This document shows, piece after piece, positions 3,376-56,257 of a stretch of DNA of 64,000 nt (its first letter is position 1; each line of letters opens with the position of its first letter). The translations under genes and the position numbers were made by a program. The DNA comes from an uncultured bacterium (GTDB lineage Bacteria > Planctomycetota > Phycisphaerae > Phycisphaerales > SM1A02). The stretch spans positions 1-64,000 of the forward strand of contig CAIUGT010000008.1 in NCBI GenBank assembly GCA_903898755.1, given 5' to 3'. Below the pieces are notes generated by a model. That model searched no databases, had not been told where the DNA came from, and was given only the letters and a program-made list of their open reading frames with translations.

Positions 3376-4092
3376 ATGAGCAATCAACCCAAAAATCCAA
3401 ATATCAACCCAAGCGTCGAGGAGGCTATGAAGCAACTTTTGAACCAAACGCAGGGTCCCGCCGAGACCCCGTCTGTGGATGCTCGCGACGTGTCAATTCC
3501 TGCCCGAATTTTGGTGGCCATGCGGTTGATTGAGTTGATGAAGAGTTCGCATGCCAGTACGGCGGAATTAATGGGTGAAATCGCAAGTCAGCTGGGACCT
3601 GATGCCATGCGGATGGCCCAACGTATTCAGCGGTCTCAGCGTGCCGCGCCGAATAGAAAAAGTCCAGAGCGAATGACGTATGTCGCTGCCATGGAAGCGG
3701 TGCGTAATTATGTCAGCGGCGAGCATGGTTTCTTTGATTTCACCAATAAAGCGCAGGCGAATTCAGCGGATGACTATGTCAAAGAATTACAAGATGTGGT
3801 GCAAGCGGGTCTTGTGGCCAAGCCGGAGTCCAAGCCGGAGTCCAAGCCGGAGTCCAAGAAAAAATCCAAGGCCAAGCGAAGTGGGGATGTGGTTGGAAAT
3901 GTTGGCGCAAATCCTGGCCTTATCAACTTTGGTCAAACCAATTCGCCAAGTCTTCCAACTCCAGGGGATTCAAACGCTTCGCAAATTCCAGATGTGGGTG
4001 GTTCTGCAACACCTTTGCAATCACAAAGCGTGAAACCAATAGAGCAGCCAAAACCGCCCAAGGAGCACCCAAATGAAAGTGACAGAAATTGA
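3376..4092 (+). CDS. Hypothetical lysine-rich protein with KPES repeats
   Basis: No family recognised. The ATG at 3376 gives 238 residues; an in-frame TTG at 3358 would add six. The first half is predicted helical and charged. The centre has three perfect KPES repeats followed by a basic KKKSKAKR tract. The C-terminal part is rich in N, P, S, Q and G and looks disordered, ending in a proline/lysine tail. The basic patch could bind nucleic acid, but this is inference. The gene is divergent from the helicase and is followed by the ECF-like sigma factor. Its last codons overlap the first copy of the repeated dyad (4075-4101), so the stop lies inside a putative regulatory element. Confidence 0.6.
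   Translation: MSNQPKNPNINPSVEEAMKQLLNQTQGPAETPSVDARDVSIPARILVAMRLIELMKSSHASTAELMGEIASQLGPDAMRMAQRIQRSQRAAPNRKSPERMTYVAAMEAVRNYVSGEHGFFDFTNKAQANSADDYVKELQDVVQAGLVAKPESKPESKPESKKKSKAKRSGDVVGNVGANPGLINFGQTNSPSLPTPGDSNASQIPDVGGSATPLQSQSVKPIEQPKPPKEHPNESDRN
3820..3855 (+). repeat. Three tandem 12-bp repeats (AAGCCGGAGTCC)
   Basis: Three identical 12-bp units encode the KPES repeats of the surrounding gene. Perfect identity at all positions, including synonymous ones, points to recent slippage expansion, so copy number may vary between strains. Confidence 0.9.
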
Positions 4093-4101
4093 CACTTTCA
4101 A
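4075..4101. promoter_or_regulatory. Dyad element, copy 1
   Basis: Arms GAAAGTGACA and TGACACTTTC flank a GAAAT spacer; nine of ten arm positions pair. The element spans the stop codon of the upstream gene and recurs 91 bp later with 25 bases unchanged. It contains a TTGACA that could serve as a -35 box. It may be an operator for the downstream sigma-factor gene or an RNA hairpin in the 3' end of the upstream message. Confidence 0.5.
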
Positions 4102-4165
4102 CCGAGCTCTTTCCCATTATGGGGGAGCGTTTGTTTTTGCCGGCTGGGCGGACGGGGTCGGAGTG

Positions 4166-4192
4166 GAAGTGACAGAAATTGACACTTTCAAA
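4166..4192. promoter_or_regulatory. Dyad element, copy 2
   Basis: Second copy of the dyad, identical to copy 1 over 4168-4192. It lies 155 bp upstream of the chosen start of the sigma-factor gene, with a TATAGA at 4209-4214 further downstream. The spacing between the embedded TTGACA and TATAGA (24 bp) is too long for a standard sigma-70 promoter, so an operator role is more likely than a core promoter. Confidence 0.5.
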
Positions 4193-4346
4193 TGTCGGGG
4201 TTGCTTTCTATAGAGGGGCTGCATTTCCGGCGAAGTCGTTCCGGGTGTCCAAATAGATGTGTCGGTTTGAAGTTTGGTTTGTCCCAACCAGTTGCCATGT
4301 TGGCGGCGGTTGTTCTGCGCACTTGGCCTTTCAAAGAAAGAGATTC

Positions 4347-5228
4347 ATGAAACTGAACCGTAAGAAAAAGAAATTGAACATAAACAGGTCGCTGTCATTC
4401 GCTGGAAATCTGCGTGGTGAATTGCGTGCTTGGGAAAGTGACTGCCAGGCTAAATTGAACTCTGGCTGCATTTTGGGTTACAAAGAATTGGCTCTCTATA
4501 TGTATTGGTACGCAAACATGTCCGAGGAGACCAACAGTGGACTTGAGGCAAACCTTGCCGATGGACATGATGGCGTCATGAATCGGGCGATCAGCTTTTT
4601 AGGCAAGGCCTCTCAGAATTTAATTGACGACGCGCGTTTTCACAGTATTGGTCAGTTGAAGAGCTACGCCAATACAGCATTCAACTCCGCCGCAGTTGAT
4701 GCTGGGCGTAGGCAGTCCATGCCGCAGAAACAGGACATTTATAACCAGACGCTTGACCGGGTGGAAGTGAAGGTGCGGCGAGTGAAGCGGATGATTGAAA
4801 ATCCAAAGATCGGTCTGCACATTGTGGATTTGGTGTCGGCTTCAAATTCCACGTTCGAAAGTCTTGAACGGCGGGAATTAAAAATGAAACTGAAAGAACT
4901 CCTTGAAGTTGTCTTGTCACAGTGCAAGCAACAGAACTATGTGCAAGTGCTGCGCATGGATATGCAAGGGATGAATGGGCCGCAAATCGCCGCCGCCCTT
5001 GGCAAGAGTCACGCCAATATTCGGCAGATGTTGCATCGAGCAAAAACATATGTAGGGCAAGCCATTTTGGCCAAGCCAGACGCACGGTACTTGATCCAGG
5101 AATTCATTGGAATTCGCATTGAAGATGAATTTGAAAGTTCCATGCGGTATGTCAAATCGATCAACTTTGCGGCGGAAGATGTACTGGATGCGCAAGTCGA
5201 TCGAAATTTTTTGTGCATGGTTGCCTAG
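4347..5228 (+). CDS. ECF-like sigma-70 family factor
   Basis: The ATG at 4347 gives 293 residues and has an AAGAAAGAG stretch just upstream; the longer frame from 4257 lacks a good start. Residues about 80-123 resemble sigma region 2, ending in F-x-S-x-x-x-L-x-x-Y...N-S-A-x-x-D-A-G-R-R. Residues about 200-240 form a region 4 helix-turn-helix, with GPQIAAALGKSHANIRQMLHRAK as core (positions 211-233). The N-terminus is very lysine-rich. It is longer and more diverged than typical 180-200 residue ECF factors, and no anti-sigma gene is adjacent. It probably directs transcription of a small regulon, possibly its own neighbourhood. Confidence 0.7.
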   Translation: MKLNRKKKKLNINRSLSFAGNLRGELRAWESDCQAKLNSGCILGYKELALYMYWYANMSEETNSGLEANLADGHDGVMNRAISFLGKASQNLIDDARFHSIGQLKSYANTAFNSAAVDAGRRQSMPQKQDIYNQTLDRVEVKVRRVKRMIENPKIGLHIVDLVSASNSTFESLERRELKMKLKELLEVVLSQCKQQNYVQVLRMDMQGMNGPQIAAALGKSHANIRQMLHRAKTYVGQAILAKPDARYLIQEFIGIRIEDEFESSMRYVKSINFAAEDVLDAQVDRNFLCMVA

Positions 5229-5300
5229 TTCGCAGTCCAGGCAAATAAATTGAGCAACCAAGTTCACACGCAAATTTGAATGTTGGTCAGAATCAAACTC

Positions 5301-6479
5301 TCAATGCAGATTCACCAACGCCTGAGCCGCGGCGTGAATTTCGCGCCGCCAACTTTCGGGCTTCAACAACACAACGCGGCCGCCGTAGGCCAGAACCCGC
5401 CGCATAGTTTCAATTTTGCTTGAGGTTGTGAAAGTCACATGCAGCTCAGAAGTAGTTTGCTCCGTCTTTGACTGGTTTCCCGCCGCGTGGCTGGATTTAT
5501 TTTTAATCGGGCGAATGCGTTGGGTTTGCCGTTTCGTCCAAACTTCACCAAGCCCCATGTTCAACGCATAGTGTGGACCATCGCTTGGGAGATCGCGATA
5601 GACCAATTCAACATCGAGGGGTTGATTGTCGTCGGGAAGTCCGCCAACAGCTTGCTCCATTCGCGCGCGCAAGTCGATTGATTTCACTTTGGGAGTGAGC
5701 AGCTCGGTGGAACCTGTGGTGTCATTTGGTTCAGCGATATGTGGATCCATCTCCAATCGATGAAGCGCAAACGACTTGATTTTCTCGGGAGTTTCACTGG
5801 AAAGATCCTGGCACAACGCATAGACGCCGCCTTGGCGAATTAAAATATGGATTGGAAACAAATGGCGAGTCTCATTCGACGCGGTTTTACCTTTCACGCT
5901 TCGATATTTCATGGAGATCACGCGTTGGTCTATGGCCGCCTGCAGCATGGCGGTCCATTTTTTTTGCAGATCTGGTGAGTTGGAGTTGTATTTAATATTG
6001 TCAAAATTGCCTGCAATCGCAGCTGGAAGACCAAAGTCCGCAATGAACAGCACTTTGGTCAAGCGCTCAATGCGTGATTCCCTTGACGAGTTCGCGGCTT
6101 TCGCGCGTGAACGAAGCTCATCCACTTGTTTGCCAAGAAGTTGATCAAGCTTTTCATGCCACGGAGTTCCCGCAAGTGAAGCCGCCAACTTTCGTAGAAC
6201 CACCAGCAAGTCGTCGGGAATAAGCGGCGCCAATCCCGCGCCTGTCGGAGCCGCCGTCATCTGATATCCGAGTTGGCGTTTGTTGCGAATGATGGCGCCG
6301 CCGGCCTTCATTTGGGACAACATTCTTTTCACCGTGCGCGCGTCGCGATTGGTGGCGTGCGTCAAGACCTTCAACGGAATCCATTTGCCGCAGTCGCCCG
6401 CATCCATCAGCAACTTAGTGATGATGGAAACAGACTCATGTCGCAAAGGTCTTGATTTTGCCATGTCGACCTCATTCAA
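5301..6479 (-). CDS. WYL-domain transcriptional regulator
   Basis: A 392-residue regulator with an N-terminal winged helix (about residues 10-75, with ATNRDARTVKRMLSQMKAGG as recognition region), a central WYL domain (about 180-250) and a C-terminal WCX-type extension (about 290-390). The eponymous Trp-Tyr-Leu appears as V-Y-A at about 219-221, so the ligand pocket is degenerate at that site. WYL proteins sense nucleotide-like or nucleic-acid ligands and often sit next to defence or mobile genes. A perfect 12-bp palindrome lies 22 bp upstream of the first ATG, a plausible autoregulatory operator. A second ATG at 6464 is also possible. Confidence 0.8.
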   Translation of the reverse strand: MNEVDMAKSRPLRHESVSIITKLLMDAGDCGKWIPLKVLTHATNRDARTVKRMLSQMKAGGAIIRNKRQLGYQMTAAPTGAGLAPLIPDDLLVVLRKLAASLAGTPWHEKLDQLLGKQVDELRSRAKAANSSRESRIERLTKVLFIADFGLPAAIAGNFDNIKYNSNSPDLQKKWTAMLQAAIDQRVISMKYRSVKGKTASNETRHLFPIHILIRQGGVYALCQDLSSETPEKIKSFALHRLEMDPHIAEPNDTTGSTELLTPKVKSIDLRARMEQAVGGLPDDNQPLDVELVYRDLPSDGPHYALNMGLGEVWTKRQTQRIRPIKNKSSHAAGNQSKTEQTTSELHVTFTTSSKIETMRRVLAYGGRVVLLKPESWRREIHAAAQALVNLH

Positions 6480-6500
6480 AGAGCGGGGGATCTGAAATGA

Positions 6501-6512
6501 TTTGACGTCAAA
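6501..6512. promoter_or_regulatory. Perfect 12-bp palindrome upstream of the WYL gene
   Basis: TTTGACGTCAAA is its own reverse complement and lies between -22 and -33 relative to the WYL start at 6479. Position and symmetry fit an operator for a dimeric regulator, most simply the WYL protein itself. Confidence 0.45.
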
Positions 6513-6557
6513 AAATGCGCGCCGGAGTGTTCAACGAAATCATTTGAGTTATTTGAA

Positions 6558-7145
6558 TCAGTCGTAAATACTGTTGGCGTCTTCGATGCTTTTGTACTTG
6601 AACATTTGCAATCCAATTGAACCACCAGCCATTAAGCCTTTTTGCGCGCCGACATACACGATCACGCCGTTGGTGTACTTGGCAACTCCCGTCACGCCGG
6701 AGTCGCCGCCGACCGCTGTGCCACTGGCGCTTCCAGCCATTGTGTTGGCCTTGAACTCTTCAAGCACTTTTTTATTTTCAAACACAATGATCATTTGCAA
6801 GCCTTGACCACCAACTTGCAAACCAATATTTGGATTGTTCATGGCGGCCCATCCAATTTGTGATCCGTCTGGAGCGAACACCGCGCCGCGACCATATTCC
6901 CCGCCACCAAAGAGAACGCCCCATTTGCCGATGCCTGGAAACACGGCGTAGCCGGCGCTGGATTTCAATTGATCATTCAAACCTGGAATGGCGTTGGTGA
7001 AATAGTCCTTGCCTTGACGCGCCTCAACAAGGAATGAAGAGCGATCATCTTTACTTGGAGCTGTGCTGCAGGCGCCCATTGAAAGCGCGCAAATGAAAGC
7101 CAAACCCAATAGCGAACCGGAAATAAGTCTTTGAAGAATGTTCAT
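6558..7145 (-). CDS. SYLF-domain (YSC84-like) lipoprotein
   Basis: A 195-residue exported protein. The N-terminus has a hydrophobic signal followed by a lipobox-like LSMGAC with Cys26. The rest matches the SYLF/Ysc84 lipid-binding fold: a conserved K-x-x-x-G-Y-A-V-F-P region near residue 65, a glycine-rich GGGEYGRG, a MIIVFENKK strand and a Q-x-G-L-x-A-G-x-S-I-G-L end. SYLF proteins bind phosphoinositides in eukaryotes; bacterial lipoprotein members have no settled function. It is divergent from the dockerin protein at 7275 and appears monocistronic. Confidence 0.85.
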   Translation of the reverse strand: MNILQRLISGSLLGLAFICALSMGACSTAPSKDDRSSFLVEARQGKDYFTNAIPGLNDQLKSSAGYAVFPGIGKWGVLFGGGEYGRGAVFAPDGSQIGWAAMNNPNIGLQVGGQGLQMIIVFENKKVLEEFKANTMAGSASGTAVGGDSGVTGVAKYTNGVIVYVGAQKGLMAGGSIGLQMFKYKSIEDANSIYD

Positions 7146-50029: not shown

Positions 50030-51361
50030 ATGAAGTTGAGCGAAACAAAACATGGCACCACGCTTGTTCTTTCTGTCAAAGGCCGCATTGACATGGAGAC
50101 CGCCGCTGAATTTGGCGACGAGTTGCTTGCAAAGATCAAGGTGGAAGGTATTGAGAAAATTGTTCTTGATTTCAGCGGAGTTGGATTTGTTTCAAGCGCA
50201 TGTTTGCGCGCGCTTATGCTTGGCTTGAAACAGGCGCGTGAATTGAAGGTCGCATTTGCGATCGCCGCAATGCAGCCCAAAGTTTTAGAAATATTCCAAC
50301 TCAGCCGCATTGACACGCTGATTCCATGTTTTGCCACCATTGAGCAGGCGATGAATAAAGTCGCCACGTCCGCCGCCGCCCAACAAGTGGTACGCGGGGA
50401 AAATGCAATGTCCGTTCATTTCTGGGGAACGCGAGGGTCCTTGCCCGCGCCGCTGACATTGCAACAGTTGCGTAATAAATTGGCGAGCGCGTTAGTGGCG
50501 GGGGTTGGCATGAATTTAGACACGATTGAAAGAGCCCATAGTTTTCTGGAGAGTTTGCCCTTTCACATTGGTGGCACATACGGAGGAAGCACTTCGTGTG
50601 TCGAGTTGAGCGCAAGTGAAAACAATGTGGTCTTGCTTGACATGGGTTCAGGCGCTCGCTTGGCGGGACAAGAAGCATTGCGCCGGTTGGCCGGGCGTGC
50701 CGGTGAATTTCATATTTTCATGTCGCACTTGCATTGGGATCACATCATGGGATTTCCGTTTTTCACTCCGGCATATATCCCAGGTCAGCGCATTCATATT
50801 TATGGATGTCACGATCAAATGGAGAATGCGTTTCGTCGCCAGCAAATGGAGCCAAGTTTTCCAGTTGATTTGTCGAAAATGGCTGCAAATATTGAATTTG
50901 TGCGCATTGAACCGGGGCGCGTGCACAACATTGCGGGTTACCAAGTGAGCGCCAAGTTGCAGCAGCATCCAGGTGATGCCTATGGCTATCGATTTGAACG
51001 CAATGGAAAGTGTGTTGTGTATTCCACCGATGCGGAGCACAAACCGGAAAACAATCAGGATGCCGCCGCTTTTATTGAATTTTATCGCGATGCCGATTTG
51101 GTTATTTTTGACGCCATGTATTCACTGGCCGACAGTGTCTCTGTAAAGGAAGATTGGGGACACTCCAGCAATGTGGTGGGCGTTGAATTGTGCCAGCAAG
51201 CGCGCGTCAAACGTCTTGCATTGGTGCATCACGATCCAGCCAATGATGACGCCACCATTGAGCGTTTATGCCACGACGCTTTGCGGTTGGAAGAAATCAC
51301 GCGCCAAGATTCGCGCCTTGAAGTTCTTGCCGCCTATGACGGGTTGGAGATTCAAATTTAA
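50030..51361 (+). CDS. STAS domain fused to metallo-beta-lactamase phosphodiesterase-like domain
   Basis: A 443-residue fusion. Residues 1-110 are a STAS (anti-sigma factor antagonist) domain: IVLDFSGVGFVSSACLRAL puts Ser55/Ser56 at the usual phosphorylation loop. Residues about 127-443 are an MBL domain of the PhnP/COG1235 kind, with FWGTRGSLPAP, HLHWDH (233-238), a TDAEH and HSS region for a second metal. An in-frame ATG at residue 127 (50408) sits exactly at the MBL domain start. STAS usually binds a kinase or GTPase-like partner; here it may switch the enzyme. It lies opposite the NO-sensing operon. Confidence 0.85.
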   Translation: MKLSETKHGTTLVLSVKGRIDMETAAEFGDELLAKIKVEGIEKIVLDFSGVGFVSSACLRALMLGLKQARELKVAFAIAAMQPKVLEIFQLSRIDTLIPCFATIEQAMNKVATSAAAQQVVRGENAMSVHFWGTRGSLPAPLTLQQLRNKLASALVAGVGMNLDTIERAHSFLESLPFHIGGTYGGSTSCVELSASENNVVLLDMGSGARLAGQEALRRLAGRAGEFHIFMSHLHWDHIMGFPFFTPAYIPGQRIHIYGCHDQMENAFRRQQMEPSFPVDLSKMAANIEFVRIEPGRVHNIAGYQVSAKLQQHPGDAYGYRFERNGKCVVYSTDAEHKPENNQDAAAFIEFYRDADLVIFDAMYSLADSVSVKEDWGHSSNVVGVELCQQARVKRLALVHHDPANDDATIERLCHDALRLEEITRQDSRLEVLAAYDGLEIQI

Positions 51362-52352: not shown

Positions 52353-53369
52353 TTACTCTTCTATGGTTGATGGATTGGAGTCGCCCACCATCATTTGCAA
52401 AAAGAGTTCGACCGCCTTGGGGTCAAAGTGCGTTCCTGATTGCTCGCGCATGTGCGCGACAATTTTTGCATAGGGCCATGCTTTGCGGTAGGGGCGGTCC
52501 GATGACAGAGCGTCCCACACATCAATCACGGCGAAGATGCGCGCGATTAAAGGAATTTGCTCGCCCTTGAGTCCGCGCGGATACCCAGTCCCATCCCAAC
52601 GTTCGTGATGGCAATATGGAATGTCCAAAGCTGAGCGCAGATATTCAATTGGAGCCAACATGTCGTGGGCAAATTGCGGGTGCTTTCGCATAATCACCCA
52701 CTCTTCTTCTGTCAGTGGTCCCGGCTTGTGCAAAATATGATCGGGCACGCCAATTTTTCCAATGTCATGCAGCAATGCGCTGCGTCGCACATGGATCAAT
52801 TCGTTGTCAGACATTCCCATCAAGCGCGCAAGTTCAACAGTGAGCAGTGTCACGCGCCGAGAATGATGTTCGGTTTCATTGTCGCGCAAATCCAAAGCGC
52901 GCACCCAGCCTTTCAGCGTGGCCTCGTAGGCGTCCTGCAATTCACGGTGAATCTGCAGCAAATCGGCTTGCTGCTTCATTAACTTTCGATAGCGATTCAA
53001 ACGAATAATAGTGTTCACGCGCGCGCGAATTTCCATGCGATCGATGGGTTTGGAAATAAAATCGTCGGCGCCGGCCTCAATGCCTTGAAGCCGCGATGCC
53101 TTGTCGTCAAGGGCCGTGGTCATCACCACGGGTACGTCGGCTAAAATTGGATCCGCGCGCAGTCTGCGGCACACTTCAAATCCATCCATGTCTGGCATCA
53201 TCACATCGAGCAAAATGAGATCAGGCTGCAATGCACTGGCTTGCTTCAGCGCGTCGAGTCCATTGTCGGAGAAGTGGAGGTTGTGACCCAATCCAGTGAG
53301 CACCGCCTCCAATGTTTCACGGCCACGCGAGTCATCATCCACAATTAAAATATTCGATAGTGAGCTCAT
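52353..53369 (-). CDS. Response regulator with HD-GYP phosphodiesterase output
   Basis: A 338-residue two-domain regulator. Receiver domain 1-120 with ILIVDDDS, phosphoacceptor Asp55 in LILLDVMMPDMDG and SKPID. After a linker helix comes an HD-GYP domain with HD at 201-202 (LLHDIGKIGVPD) and HHERWDGTGYP at 254-264, so the metal ligands and GYP triad are intact and c-di-GMP hydrolysis is predicted. It is the last gene of the minus-strand H-NOX operon, 12 bp after the kinase, and is the likely cognate output. Confidence 0.95.
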   Translation of the reverse strand: MSSLSNILIVDDDSRGRETLEAVLTGLGHNLHFSDNGLDALKQASALQPDLILLDVMMPDMDGFEVCRRLRADPILADVPVVMTTALDDKASRLQGIEAGADDFISKPIDRMEIRARVNTIIRLNRYRKLMKQQADLLQIHRELQDAYEATLKGWVRALDLRDNETEHHSRRVTLLTVELARLMGMSDNELIHVRRSALLHDIGKIGVPDHILHKPGPLTEEEWVIMRKHPQFAHDMLAPIEYLRSALDIPYCHHERWDGTGYPRGLKGEQIPLIARIFAVIDVWDALSSDRPYRKAWPYAKIVAHMREQSGTHFDPKAVELFLQMMVGDSNPSTIEE

Positions 53370-53381
53370 GGCGAATTTTGT

Positions 53382-55067
53382 TTAAAGCGTTTCGTCGTTG
53401 GGCAAGTGAGCTCGAATGGTTTTCACCAGTTGTTTCATATTCACTGGCTTGCTGAGATAGTCGTTGGCTCCAACAGCGATACAGCGTTCGCGGTCGCCCA
53501 CCATTGCGCGCGAAGTTAAAGCGATAATAGGCATATCGGTGTGTTTATCATCTGCACGCAAATGGGCGATGGCGTCCAGGCCATCCATCAATGGCATTTG
53601 AATATCCATGAGCACCAACGAAGGAATGTGCTCGCGCACCATTTTCACGGCTTCCAATCCATCGCGCGCTTGAATCACCCGTAATTTGTTGGCGCGCAGA
53701 TAATCAGTGACCGTCATAAGGTTGATCTCATTGTCGTCAGCCACCAAGATGAGGGGTGTGTTGCTTGGAAGTGTTTCGGCGGGAGTGATTTCAGTAAGGG
53801 ATATTGTTCCGCTGGGGTTGTGTTGGTTCAAAGTATCCAAACCCTTGCATGGAATTCGAACAGTGAAGCAGCTGCCTTTGCCAATTTCACTTTCCACTGC
53901 CACGCTGCCACCATGCAGTTCGACCAGTTTCATAACCAAAGTCAGACCAAGTCCGGTGCCGGCGTACTGGCGGGAAAGTTTGGAATCCAATTGTGTGAAG
54001 GGACTAAAGAGGCGCTTTAAATCTTCAGTGGCAATTCCAATGCCAGTGTCACGAACGGAGAACATAAGGGATTCACTTTCCAAATCGCACTTGGTCTCCA
54101 GAGTTACGCTGCCGCCATTCGGAGTGAACTTCACGGCATTGGAGAGCAGATTCACCAGGATTTGTTTCAAGCGGCGTTCGTCGGCAGTGAGCATGACGGA
54201 TTGATTGTCCATGACCAGCTTGAGATTTATTTTTTGCTTTTGCGCTTGTTCCATAACAAATCGCAAACTTGCCTGGCACAGATCCTCCACATTGGCTTTC
54301 GTCAACTCAAGTTCCATTTTGCCGGCGCCAATTTTGGCGATGTCCAGCAAGTCGTTGATCAGCGCTAAAAGATGGTGGCCACTTTCCGCGATGGTGTTGA
54401 TGGATTTGACTTGCTTGGTGTTCATATCTCCATATACGCCTTCGGCAAGCGATTCGGAAAGTCCAAGTATGGCGTTGAGCGGCGTGCGCAATTCATGGCT
54501 CATAGCCGACAAGAAATCATCCTTGGAGCGCATGACGCGCGACAGTTCGGCGTTGGCCATTGATAGTTCAGCGGTGCGATCGGCCACGCGTTGCTCAAGT
54601 TTTTCAGAAAGTTGTTTGGCGTCGTGCAGCGATGTGCTGGTGGCTTGAACTAATTGCAATAGATCAACCGTGGAATCATGCAGCGCGAAGTCCTGCAAAA
54701 CCAAATGCAAGGCTTTTAATTCGGTTGGATTGCGCACCCATGGCGACCCCAGAAAAAGATAGCGCTCTGGGTCGCGTAAAATGAGAACTTGACATCGCAG
54801 CATTAAATCGGTGGATGTGGATTTAAAAACAAACAGCGTGTTTTCCTGCCGCGCAATGAAATCACGGTTGAAAGCCTTGATTGGCTCCGACGCCAGTCGA
54901 AACAACAAGAAATGATCATTAATTAAAGCGCCTGGAACGATCTTGGGGCAAACACGCGCCAACACTGACCCCGTATCAATAACCCGCATGTCCGCGTCCA
55001 CAATAAAATGAAATGGAAACAGCTTTGAAAACTGCCCGTGGTCAAGCATGGGCGCGGAGTCCGTCAT
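53382..55067 (-). CDS. Hybrid histidine kinase with HNOBA sensor domain
   Basis: A 561-residue kinase. Residues about 12-145 form the HNOBA (haem NO-binding associated) domain: LFPFHFIVDADMRV, RYLFLGSPWV and LVLQDFALHDSTVDLLQL are diagnostic. A coiled coil (150-182) leads to HisKA with His191 in SHELRTPLNA, an ATPase domain with NLLSNAVKFTPNG, DTGIGIA and GTGLGL, and a C-terminal receiver with Asp488 in LVLMDIQMPLMDG. No membrane segment. ATG 55067 makes an ATGA overlap with the H-NOX stop, so sensor and kinase are translationally coupled. It probably relays H-NOX haem state to the HD-GYP regulator. Confidence 0.94.
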   Translation of the reverse strand: MTDSAPMLDHGQFSKLFPFHFIVDADMRVIDTGSVLARVCPKIVPGALINDHFLLFRLASEPIKAFNRDFIARQENTLFVFKSTSTDLMLRCQVLILRDPERYLFLGSPWVRNPTELKALHLVLQDFALHDSTVDLLQLVQATSTSLHDAKQLSEKLEQRVADRTAELSMANAELSRVMRSKDDFLSAMSHELRTPLNAILGLSESLAEGVYGDMNTKQVKSINTIAESGHHLLALINDLLDIAKIGAGKMELELTKANVEDLCQASLRFVMEQAQKQKINLKLVMDNQSVMLTADERRLKQILVNLLSNAVKFTPNGGSVTLETKCDLESESLMFSVRDTGIGIATEDLKRLFSPFTQLDSKLSRQYAGTGLGLTLVMKLVELHGGSVAVESEIGKGSCFTVRIPCKGLDTLNQHNPSGTISLTEITPAETLPSNTPLILVADDNEINLMTVTDYLRANKLRVIQARDGLEAVKMVREHIPSLVLMDIQMPLMDGLDAIAHLRADDKHTDMPIIALTSRAMVGDRERCIAVGANDYLSKPVNMKQLVKTIRAHLPNDETL

Positions 55068-55624
55068 TTTTGATCCGCGGCGCCCCAATTCACAAGGAAC
55101 TCATCATGGTCAGCGCCTTTGTCTTTGAACTTGGTGTGGGTCACAACGGCGGGTGTTTTGTAAAGTTTCGAAATGCCATTGAGCATTCCAACAACCACCA
55201 TGGAGAGACCTGGTCGGTCGCTGAAGTAATGCAGGGTGATTCCATTTTCATGTCGGTCAGAACATTCAAATCGCGGTGGTTTGAGATTTGGAAAAATCAA
55301 AGCGACGCGCGTGTGGAACAAGGGGAGATAGTCCAAGAATTCACCAATGGTGCGTCCCGCTGACATCAACATGTCGCCGTAGCCTTTGAACGCTGTATGC
55401 GTTACCCAAAACTCGCCGAACGCATAAAGAACTTGATCCGCGGTCAGGCCAAGCACTTCGGTGGCCGCTCCAACCAAACCATATGTCATTGCGTCTGGAT
55501 AACTTTGGTTGCTAACGAATGCGGTCTCGGTCACGCCGGCTTTCTTTTTCACGGCTTCCCATTTGTCAGCGCCAAATTGAATTGTGACCAAGTCTTCAAT
55601 GGATTTGTTGATCATTCCATGCAT
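55064..55624 (-). CDS. H-NOX haem nitric-oxide sensor, copy 1
   Basis: A 186-residue soluble haem protein. The proximal His104 lies in LPLFHTRV and the propionate-binding Y-x-S-x-R is Y133-S135-R137 (HYFSDR). The residue equivalent to the distal Tyr140 of O2-binding H-NOX proteins is Met142, so O2 should be excluded and NO favoured. The start at 55624 (MHGMINKSIEDLV) matches the family N-terminus. It is directly upstream of and coupled to the HNOBA kinase, and 66 bp downstream of a close paralog. Confidence 0.95.
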   Translation of the reverse strand: MHGMINKSIEDLVTIQFGADKWEAVKKKAGVTETAFVSNQSYPDAMTYGLVGAATEVLGLTADQVLYAFGEFWVTHTAFKGYGDMLMSAGRTIGEFLDYLPLFHTRVALIFPNLKPPRFECSDRHENGITLHYFSDRPGLSMVVVGMLNGISKLYKTPAVVTHTKFKDKGADHDEFLVNWGAADQK

Positions 55625-55690
55625 GTGCTTCTCGTTTCTGTTGGAAAGATTATGAAGTGCTTGAATTCTGAGTGTATCGGAATTGTTATT

Positions 55691-56257
55691 TTATCCACTC
55701 TTTTGAATGGCGTCGCCCCAGCACACCAAGAACTCGTCGTGGTCGTCGCCCTTGTCTTTGAATTTGGTCTGCGTGATCTGAGCGGGCGTGTCATACATTT
55801 TTGCAATGCCACTGAAGAGCCCCCGTACAAACACGGACAAGCCAGGACGGTGGCTGAAATAATGCATTGTGATTCGATCCGCTTGCCGATCGGAACATTC
55901 AAAGCGCGGCGGTTTGAGATGCGGAAAAATCAGCGCCACACGCGTGTGGAACATTGGAAGGTAATCAAGAAACTCCGGCATATTGCGACCAGCGGAACTG
56001 AGCAAGTCCCCGTAGTCCTGGCGCGCCGTGTTTAAAACCCAAAACTCGCCAAAGGCGAAAAGAATTTCGTCCGCGCTCAACTTCAGCACTTCAGTGGCCG
56101 CGCCAATAAGTCCATAAGTCATGGCATCGGGGTAGCTCTCATTGCTAATGAAAGCCTCAATTGTCACTCCCGCCTTCTGTTTAATTTCTTCCCACTTGTC
56201 AATTCCAAATTTGGTCGTAACGAGTGCTTGCACCGATTTGTTGACCATGCCGTACAT
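55691..56257 (-). CDS. H-NOX haem nitric-oxide sensor, copy 2
   Basis: A 188-residue paralog of the gene at 55064, aligning without gaps over nearly its full length. Proximal His104 (LPMFHTRV), Y133-S135-R137 (HYFSHR) and Val142 at the distal position. The first gene of the operon, with AGGAG six bases upstream of ATG 56257. Tandem H-NOX copies feeding one kinase could give two affinities, a heterodimer or antagonistic control. The gap to the divergent lipoprotein gene contains two dyads. Confidence 0.95.
   Translation of the reverse strand: MYGMVNKSVQALVTTKFGIDKWEEIKQKAGVTIEAFISNESYPDAMTYGLIGAATEVLKLSADEILFAFGEFWVLNTARQDYGDLLSSAGRNMPEFLDYLPMFHTRVALIFPHLKPPRFECSDRQADRITMHYFSHRPGLSVFVRGLFSGIAKMYDTPAQITQTKFKDKGDDHDEFLVCWGDAIQKSG

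Follow-up and report, generated by a model that had tools for sequence, protein, structure and literature searches.

Why would one histidine kinase be accompanied by two adjacent copies of the same gas sensor? The question is raised by an operon in a 64,000-nucleotide stretch of DNA (the window; assembly GCA_903898755.1, contig CAIUGT010000008.1, positions 1 to 64,000) from an uncultured bacterium of the lineage Planctomycetota; Phycisphaerae; Phycisphaerales; SM1A02. Its four genes lie head to tail in the order hnoxA, hnoxB, kinase, and REC-HD-GYP (REC, receiver domain), and encode two H-NOX proteins, a hybrid kinase with an HNOBA domain, and a response regulator with an HD-GYP domain. These are known parts in a new arrangement, of which the H-NOX pair is the new part. 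On balance we consider it probable, if only just, that a single kinase, which controls an HD-GYP enzyme, is set by two nitric oxide (NO) sensors that differ in their haem pockets, and the pattern among relatives hints that one gas sensor has repeatedly been split into two with different tuning.

HnoxA and HnoxB are 70% identical (E 4e-105), and both match the whole HNOB domain, with 159.3 and 157 bits, respectively, against a curated cut-off of 25.5; these Pfam scores, together with the identity between the copies, rule out a chance resemblance. For both proteins the closest chain in PDB is the Nostoc H-NOX Alr2278 (E 7.6e-55 and 85/180 identical residues for HnoxA, 84/180 for HnoxB), followed by the beta subunit of soluble guanylate cyclase (sGC). 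The proximal haem histidine, Pro118, and the YxSxR motif are present in both copies (residue positions follow Nostoc numbering unless a window residue is named), and the two proteins are the only H-NOX matches in the window genome, which is 91.6% complete. Compared with their counterparts in G491, a genome of the same genus, the ratios of nonsynonymous to synonymous divergence (dN/dS, NG86 method) are 0.063 for hnoxA and 0.095 for hnoxB. Both copies are thus under strong purifying selection, and the latter value rules out that hnoxB is a pseudogene. Synonymous divergence between the copies is saturated, and hence incomputable, in the window and reaches 2.2 in both G491 and G412.

H-NOX matches occur in 97/181 genomes of the family, 34/397 of a class sample, and 42/392 of a phylum sample, each count including the window genome. 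The initial annotation had called two H-NOX genes with one HNOBA kinase unusual, and the survey bears this out: a tandem pair of full H-NOX genes beside one HNOBA kinase was found in 17 of the 97 H-NOX-bearing family genomes (the window genome and G491 of genus g1, G412 of g10, G459 and G460 of g2, eleven genomes of g3, and G431 of g280) and in 0/50 sampled outside the family, where closely spaced H-NOX matches were absent from all 16 class genomes and all 34 other-class genomes with H-NOX. Six of these 34 carry two or three matches that lie far apart or on different contigs. The two copies of a pair are 43-79% identical; some of the loci counted as single may be pairs, being situated where a contig ends. 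When domains were mapped in 101 family loci (100 fetched stretches plus the window), an HNOBA kinase of sufficient length was present in 67 and a REC-HD-GYP gene stood behind the kinase in 15. The gene order therefore recurs across relatives, and the HD-GYP link is not a one-off. In the text passages searched of the open-licence literature, no description of a tandem H-NOX pair was recognised, and no paper was found there that brings together "H-NOX," "Planctomycetes," and "nitric oxide."

The history of the pairs was followed in a quick tree of 100 H-NOX rows and a separate tree of 67 kinases. The extra copies occupy three separate places in the H-NOX tree, namely hnoxB and its kin (5 rows; support of 97 in the Shimodaira-Hasegawa-like approximate likelihood ratio test, SH-aLRT), the g3 second copies (11 rows; 100), and the g2 first copies (2 rows; 96). 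Joining any two of these sets was rejected by approximately unbiased (AU) tests (p 0.0023, 0.00018, and 0.0058), which rejects a common duplication behind the pairs of the window's clade, g3, and g2. Judging by these trees, pairs arose in three lineages; a fourth origin, that of G431, is probable only, this lineage having long branches and the AU tests having covered the other three. In the kinase tree, where loci were labelled as pair (17), single (43), or undecidable at contig ends (7), the pair loci fall in four parts with at least seven changes of pair label, which may be losses. For g2, the H-NOX tree joins the two first copies as sisters, whereas the kinase tree does not so join the two kinases. 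One loss seems to have left its trace in G484, whose hnoxA DNA is 97% identical to that of G491: its single H-NOX gene follows G491 hnoxA and then, over about the last 50 bases, G491 hnoxB. One copy was apparently lost here through a crossover between hnoxA and hnoxB, although an artefact of metagenome assembly is also possible.

What, then, distinguishes the copies? Trp74, the haem ligand His105, Pro118, Tyr134, and Arg138 are kept in 34/34 pair copies, and Ser136 is replaced by Thr in one. At position 148, exactly one copy of each of the 17 pairs lacks leucine and carries Met, Val, or Ala instead; this is the second copy in 14 pairs and the first in g2 and G431. Among 65 single family loci the residue is missing from one, and 61 of the other 64 have Leu148. 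Of the three that differ, two group with hnoxB (L112 and L077, the latter starting at a contig end), and the third, L095, has a nucleotide cyclase partner. Leu148 is also found in 35/36 H-NOX proteins from outside the family, to which 20 of the 34 other-class H-NOX genomes contributed a single match each, and in all nine divergent family proteins that were left out of the tree and the single-locus count (L046, L048, L080, L082, L085, L133, L135, L152, and L153). A length filter removed short H-NOX pieces, among them L049, L050, L051, L078, and L086 and, further, L093, L094, L116, L117, and L122; loci L164-L166 lay outside the analysis. In G155, both H-NOX loci (L049 and L050) are split between frames, one with an internal stop, and may be pseudogenes or products of sequencing errors.

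Fisher's exact test on loci gives 9e-15 for the association of Leu148 loss with pairing, a value to be read in light of the relatedness of the loci, which leaves about four independent events. In three of the four groups, one copy has lost Tyr2 as well. Between HnoxA and HnoxB, the haem pocket and gas tunnel differ at Tyr2/His2, Val5/Ile5, Ile66/Val66, and Leu148/Met148, and also by Phe/Val at 144. In the available passages of the cited papers, Leu148 and Tyr2 are contacts of haem-pocket drugs (PMC6225106) and sGC Ile149 is counted among the residues of the haem pocket (PMC8448884). Human Ile149 corresponds to Leu148, given that the YxSxR numbering is offset by one residue. No paper on L144F or on sGC Ile149/Ile145 was found in the open-licence literature, and the residue names sought are absent from the accessible portions of PMC9592903 and PMC6387030.

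The kinase scores well for each of its domains in Pfam: HNOBA (E 1.5e-21; 77.3 bits against a cut-off of 23.4), HisKA (3.9e-19), HATPase_c (5.4e-31), and Response_reg (2.9e-27). The best PDB matches of its N terminus are 2p08 (E 2e-15) and 2p04, entries named "signal transduction histidine kinase" that we take to be the H-NOXA domain of a Nostoc kinase, followed by sGC beta1 and alpha1. Both phosphoacceptor residues, His191 and Asp488 of the REC domain, are present. Translation likely starts at the ATG at 55067 rather than at an upstream TTG, because the kinases of relatives L156, L157, and L158 have 561 residues when read from the same kind of ATG; two of these begin, like the window kinase, with MTDSAPML. 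The outline given by the initial annotation, of four same-strand genes including two H-NOX paralogs, agrees with the Pfam domains and positions. Its details hold as well: the kinase ATG overlaps the hnoxB stop codon as ATGA, the HNOBA domain is confirmed by the match above, Asp55 of the HD-GYP protein is in place, and a cytoplasmic kinase is reasonable, with no strongly hydrophobic 19-residue stretch in the protein (highest Kyte-Doolittle mean, 1.38). The operon kinase is the only HNOBA match found in the window genome, which offers no second HNOBA protein as another target of the sensors. No Hpt match was found by Pfam in any of the four operon proteins, and the genome has a single one, inside an 805-residue frame; direct transfer to the REC domain of the HD-GYP protein would therefore be the simplest route.

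The regulator matches Response_reg (E 9.2e-29) and HD_5 (E 2.1e-38), and its HDIGK at residue 201 and HHERWDGTGYP at residue 254 fit the HDxGK and HHExxDGxGYP patterns. In PDB, 5z7c is the top match and 4mcw is also found. The best NCBIfam model is that of the NosR family (NF053512), of which the regulator cannot be counted a member, its 178.2 bits falling below the curated cut-off of 400. Components for cyclic di-GMP (c-di-GMP) signalling in the window genome comprise two GGDEF and two EAL matches, which share the same two loci, a single PilZ match, and 11 HD_5 matches on eight contigs. One of the two GGDEF/EAL loci, the GGDEF-EAL frame G000:C8:77658-78890, lies outside the window on the operon's contig, at a distance of about 21 kb. 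In a relative, G380 (L042, 9538-9848 in H-NOX orientation), extra REC and HD-GYP remnants lie between kinase and regulator.

In the model that we favor, HnoxA and HnoxB would each carry haem and bind to the HNOBA domain of the one hybrid kinase, thereby setting the balance between the autokinase and phosphatase activities of this kinase; that both act on this kinase is proposed by analogy with known H-NOX systems. The kinase would pass phosphate, directly or after its own REC domain, to the REC-HD-GYP protein, which would alter a cyclic dinucleotide, most likely c-di-GMP. Because haem pocket and gas tunnel residues differ, the copies should handle NO differently, and by binding or releasing it differently they may widen the NO response of the single kinase or make it two-step.

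The closest known arrangement is of the Nostoc type (Alr2278, PDB 2o09, with the H-NOXA kinase of 2p04 and 2p08), which has the same stand-alone H-NOX beside a kinase with N-terminal HNOBA, whereas the window operon has two H-NOX genes per kinase, one of them a pocket-diverged copy, and an adjoining same-strand REC-HD-GYP gene. HnoD of the Shewanella/Vibrio H-NOX-HnoK-HnoB/HnoD systems is a degenerate HD-GYP protein; the window operon, in contrast, lacks an EAL regulator, has intact HD-GYP motifs, and carries two sensors. The PDB entries 2kii and 4u99, presumably Shewanella H-NOX, are distant (E 7e-6 to 1e-5 against HnoxA, 2e-8 against HnoxB). In Shewanella/Vibrio, as described in the passages available, H-NOX controls HnoK, whose regulators change c-di-GMP, and the phosphodiesterase HnoB is inhibited by HnoD (PMC8846402); a comparable scheme is what the favored model proposes for the window operon. 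A Burkholderia system, NosP-NosK-NosR, likewise combines a sensor (here of NO), a kinase, and an HD-GYP regulator, with demonstrated phosphotransfer from kinase to regulator (PMC12570481), and the window regulator has a subthreshold match to the NosR family; the sensor NosP, however, is a FIST-domain protein, whereas those of the window are H-NOX. Legionella likewise has two H-NOX proteins in one organism, Hnox1 and Hnox2, but these belong to separate operons with separate partners in the excerpted text (PMC11237717, PMC8738867) and form no tandem pair on one kinase. As for sGC, the HNOBA domains of both subunits match the window kinase and the H-NOX domain of the beta subunit matches both sensors; its output is a cyclase, and both window H-NOX copies keep the haem ligand.

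Several observations weigh against the favored model. The regulator's top PDB match, 5z7c, is a phosphodiesterase of 3'3'-cGAMP (cyclic GMP-AMP), and among the 15 operon HD-GYP proteins, that of G380 fails the HDxGK pattern and that of G403 fails both. The close relatives G484, G478, and G488 have one H-NOX copy. The AU tests used quick trees, and their groups were defined once the tree had been inspected. The change at position 148 is mild (Met, Val, or Ala; sGC has Ile), and L169, a single H-NOX from outside the family, also has Met there. A permutation over conserved columns gave 0.0009 for one column being hit in all four groups, a crude, post hoc value that weights conserved columns equally. 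On the side of the model, the four fully fixed A/B sites of the window's clade (2, 5, 66, and 148) all fall within a list of 31 pocket or tunnel positions (p 0.0007), a list put together after the sites were known, from the available parts of PMC7356049 and PMC6225106 and the haem motif. Pocket enrichment holds only for these fixed sites: it is weak when all 11 B-specific sites of this clade are taken (p 0.099), and neither g3 (p 0.62 for fixed sites, 0.87 for all) nor g2 (p 0.83) shows it. These alignments support a retuned pocket at the fixed sites of the window's clade and, across lineages, only at position 148 and partly at position 2.

Other explanations of the pair were weighed against the same evidence. 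The copies might divide the signals between them, one H-NOX reporting NO and the other a different ligand or redox state, with the kinase integrating two inputs. Their differences at haem-pocket positions would suit such a division, and the signal may be something other than the haem state, because in Caulobacter, as far as the passages at hand describe it, NO-bound H-NOX does not inhibit HnoK and it is cysteine oxidation that makes H-NOX inhibit this kinase (PMC12329717). We nevertheless judge this unlikely, since the five conserved residues listed above are kept in every pair copy and Cys121 (Nostoc 122) is common to HnoxA, HnoxB, and the Nostoc H-NOX and so makes no distinction. Moreover, neither window copy has Tyr at position 144, which we take to be the counterpart of the tyrosine tied to O2 binding.

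The match of HNOBA to both sGC subunits, and the location of 23 of the 26 g3 copy-specific sites outside the pocket list, would fit an sGC-like heteromer in which HnoxA and HnoxB occupy one HNOBA protomer each of a kinase dimer and have co-adapted at their surfaces, not in how they bind ligands. The sGC alpha subunit has lost its haem histidine and binds no haem, whereas this histidine is lost in 0/34 pair copies, and single-copy relatives suggest that a homomeric form works; we regard this explanation as quite improbable. We give least credence to dosage or drift, by which tandem duplication would merely supply more of the same sensor and copies would come and go without special function. Copy number is indeed unstable, as in G484 with its crossover mark, and pair loci are scattered among single loci in the kinase tree, but the high synonymous divergence between copies, the dN/dS below 0.1 for each copy between the window and G491, and the alteration of the same residue in one copy of every pair all speak against it.

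Returning to differential tuning, a broader reading, which we regard as possible but doubtful, is that tandem duplication of H-NOX next to a single HNOBA kinase took place at least three times, probably four, each time with one copy retuned via Leu148. The outcome would be a paired-receptor NO sensor, working either with two affinities or as an A:B heteromer on a single kinase dimer, and a bacterial parallel to the two-subunit guanylate cyclase of animals. The evolutionary pattern thus leads to a sharp prediction about one residue, position 148. The A/B pairs are natural test proteins, having been split repeatedly and each time differing at one pocket residue, and they bear on how H-NOX sets NO affinity and on how cells read NO over a wide concentration range. 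If the model is true, signalling from NO to cyclic dinucleotides extends to planctomycetes.

The features of the operon are collected in the table below. The intergenic distance is 66 bp between hnoxA and hnoxB and 12 bp between the kinase and the HD-GYP gene. The dyad is perfect in the window, G491, and G488 and, by eye, imperfect in G484 and G478; ten further upstream regions were examined and did not show it.

Features of the H-NOX operon, with coordinates in the window
Feature	Coordinates	Strand	Description
hnoxA	55691..56257	minus	stand-alone H-NOX (HNOB), 188 aa; Pfam HNOB E 9.7e-47
hnoxA Leu147 codon	55817-55819	minus	= Nostoc Leu148
hnoxA Tyr2 codon	56252-56254	minus	
hnoxA His104 codon	55946-55948	minus	haem His
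hnoxB	55064..55624	minus	tandem paralogue of hnoxA, 186 aa; Pfam HNOB E 5e-46
hnoxB Met147 codon	55184-55186	minus	= Nostoc 148
hnoxB His2 codon	55619-55621	minus	
hnoxB His104 codon	55313-55315	minus	haem His
Hybrid kinase	53382..55067	minus	561 aa; HNOBA/H-NOXA - HisKA (His191) - HATPase - REC (Asp488)
REC-HD-GYP response regulator	52353..53369	minus	338 aa; Asp55, HDIGK, HHERWDGTGYP intact; Pfam, PDB matches
Possible regulatory dyad TTCAAT-N6-ATTGAA	56291..56308	minus	upstream of hnoxA

Some H-NOX loci of relatives have other partners. In L095 (G409, 4780-6647, minus strand), H-NOX is followed by a protein that combines an HNOBA-like segment, scoring below the cut-off of Pfam, with a nucleotide cyclase domain (Guanylate_cyc in Pfam, 1.3e-14); both parts are covered by a match to sGC alpha1 in PDB, and the arrangement amounts to a split, sGC-like pair in a bacterium. 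In L152 (G435, 3715-6256, minus strand), the divergent H-NOX lies upstream of a GGDEF-EAL protein, a direct H-NOX/c-di-GMP layout known elsewhere. At L114 and L118 (g298), L121 (g5), and L126 (g15), the gene after H-NOX encodes an HNOBA protein with an HWE-type kinase domain, in three cases also with PAS, and neighbours from these genera and from g297 have H-NOX followed by HNOBA without a HisKA-type domain. In the window itself, positions 50030-51361 encode a STAS domain fused to a metallo-beta-lactamase-fold domain.

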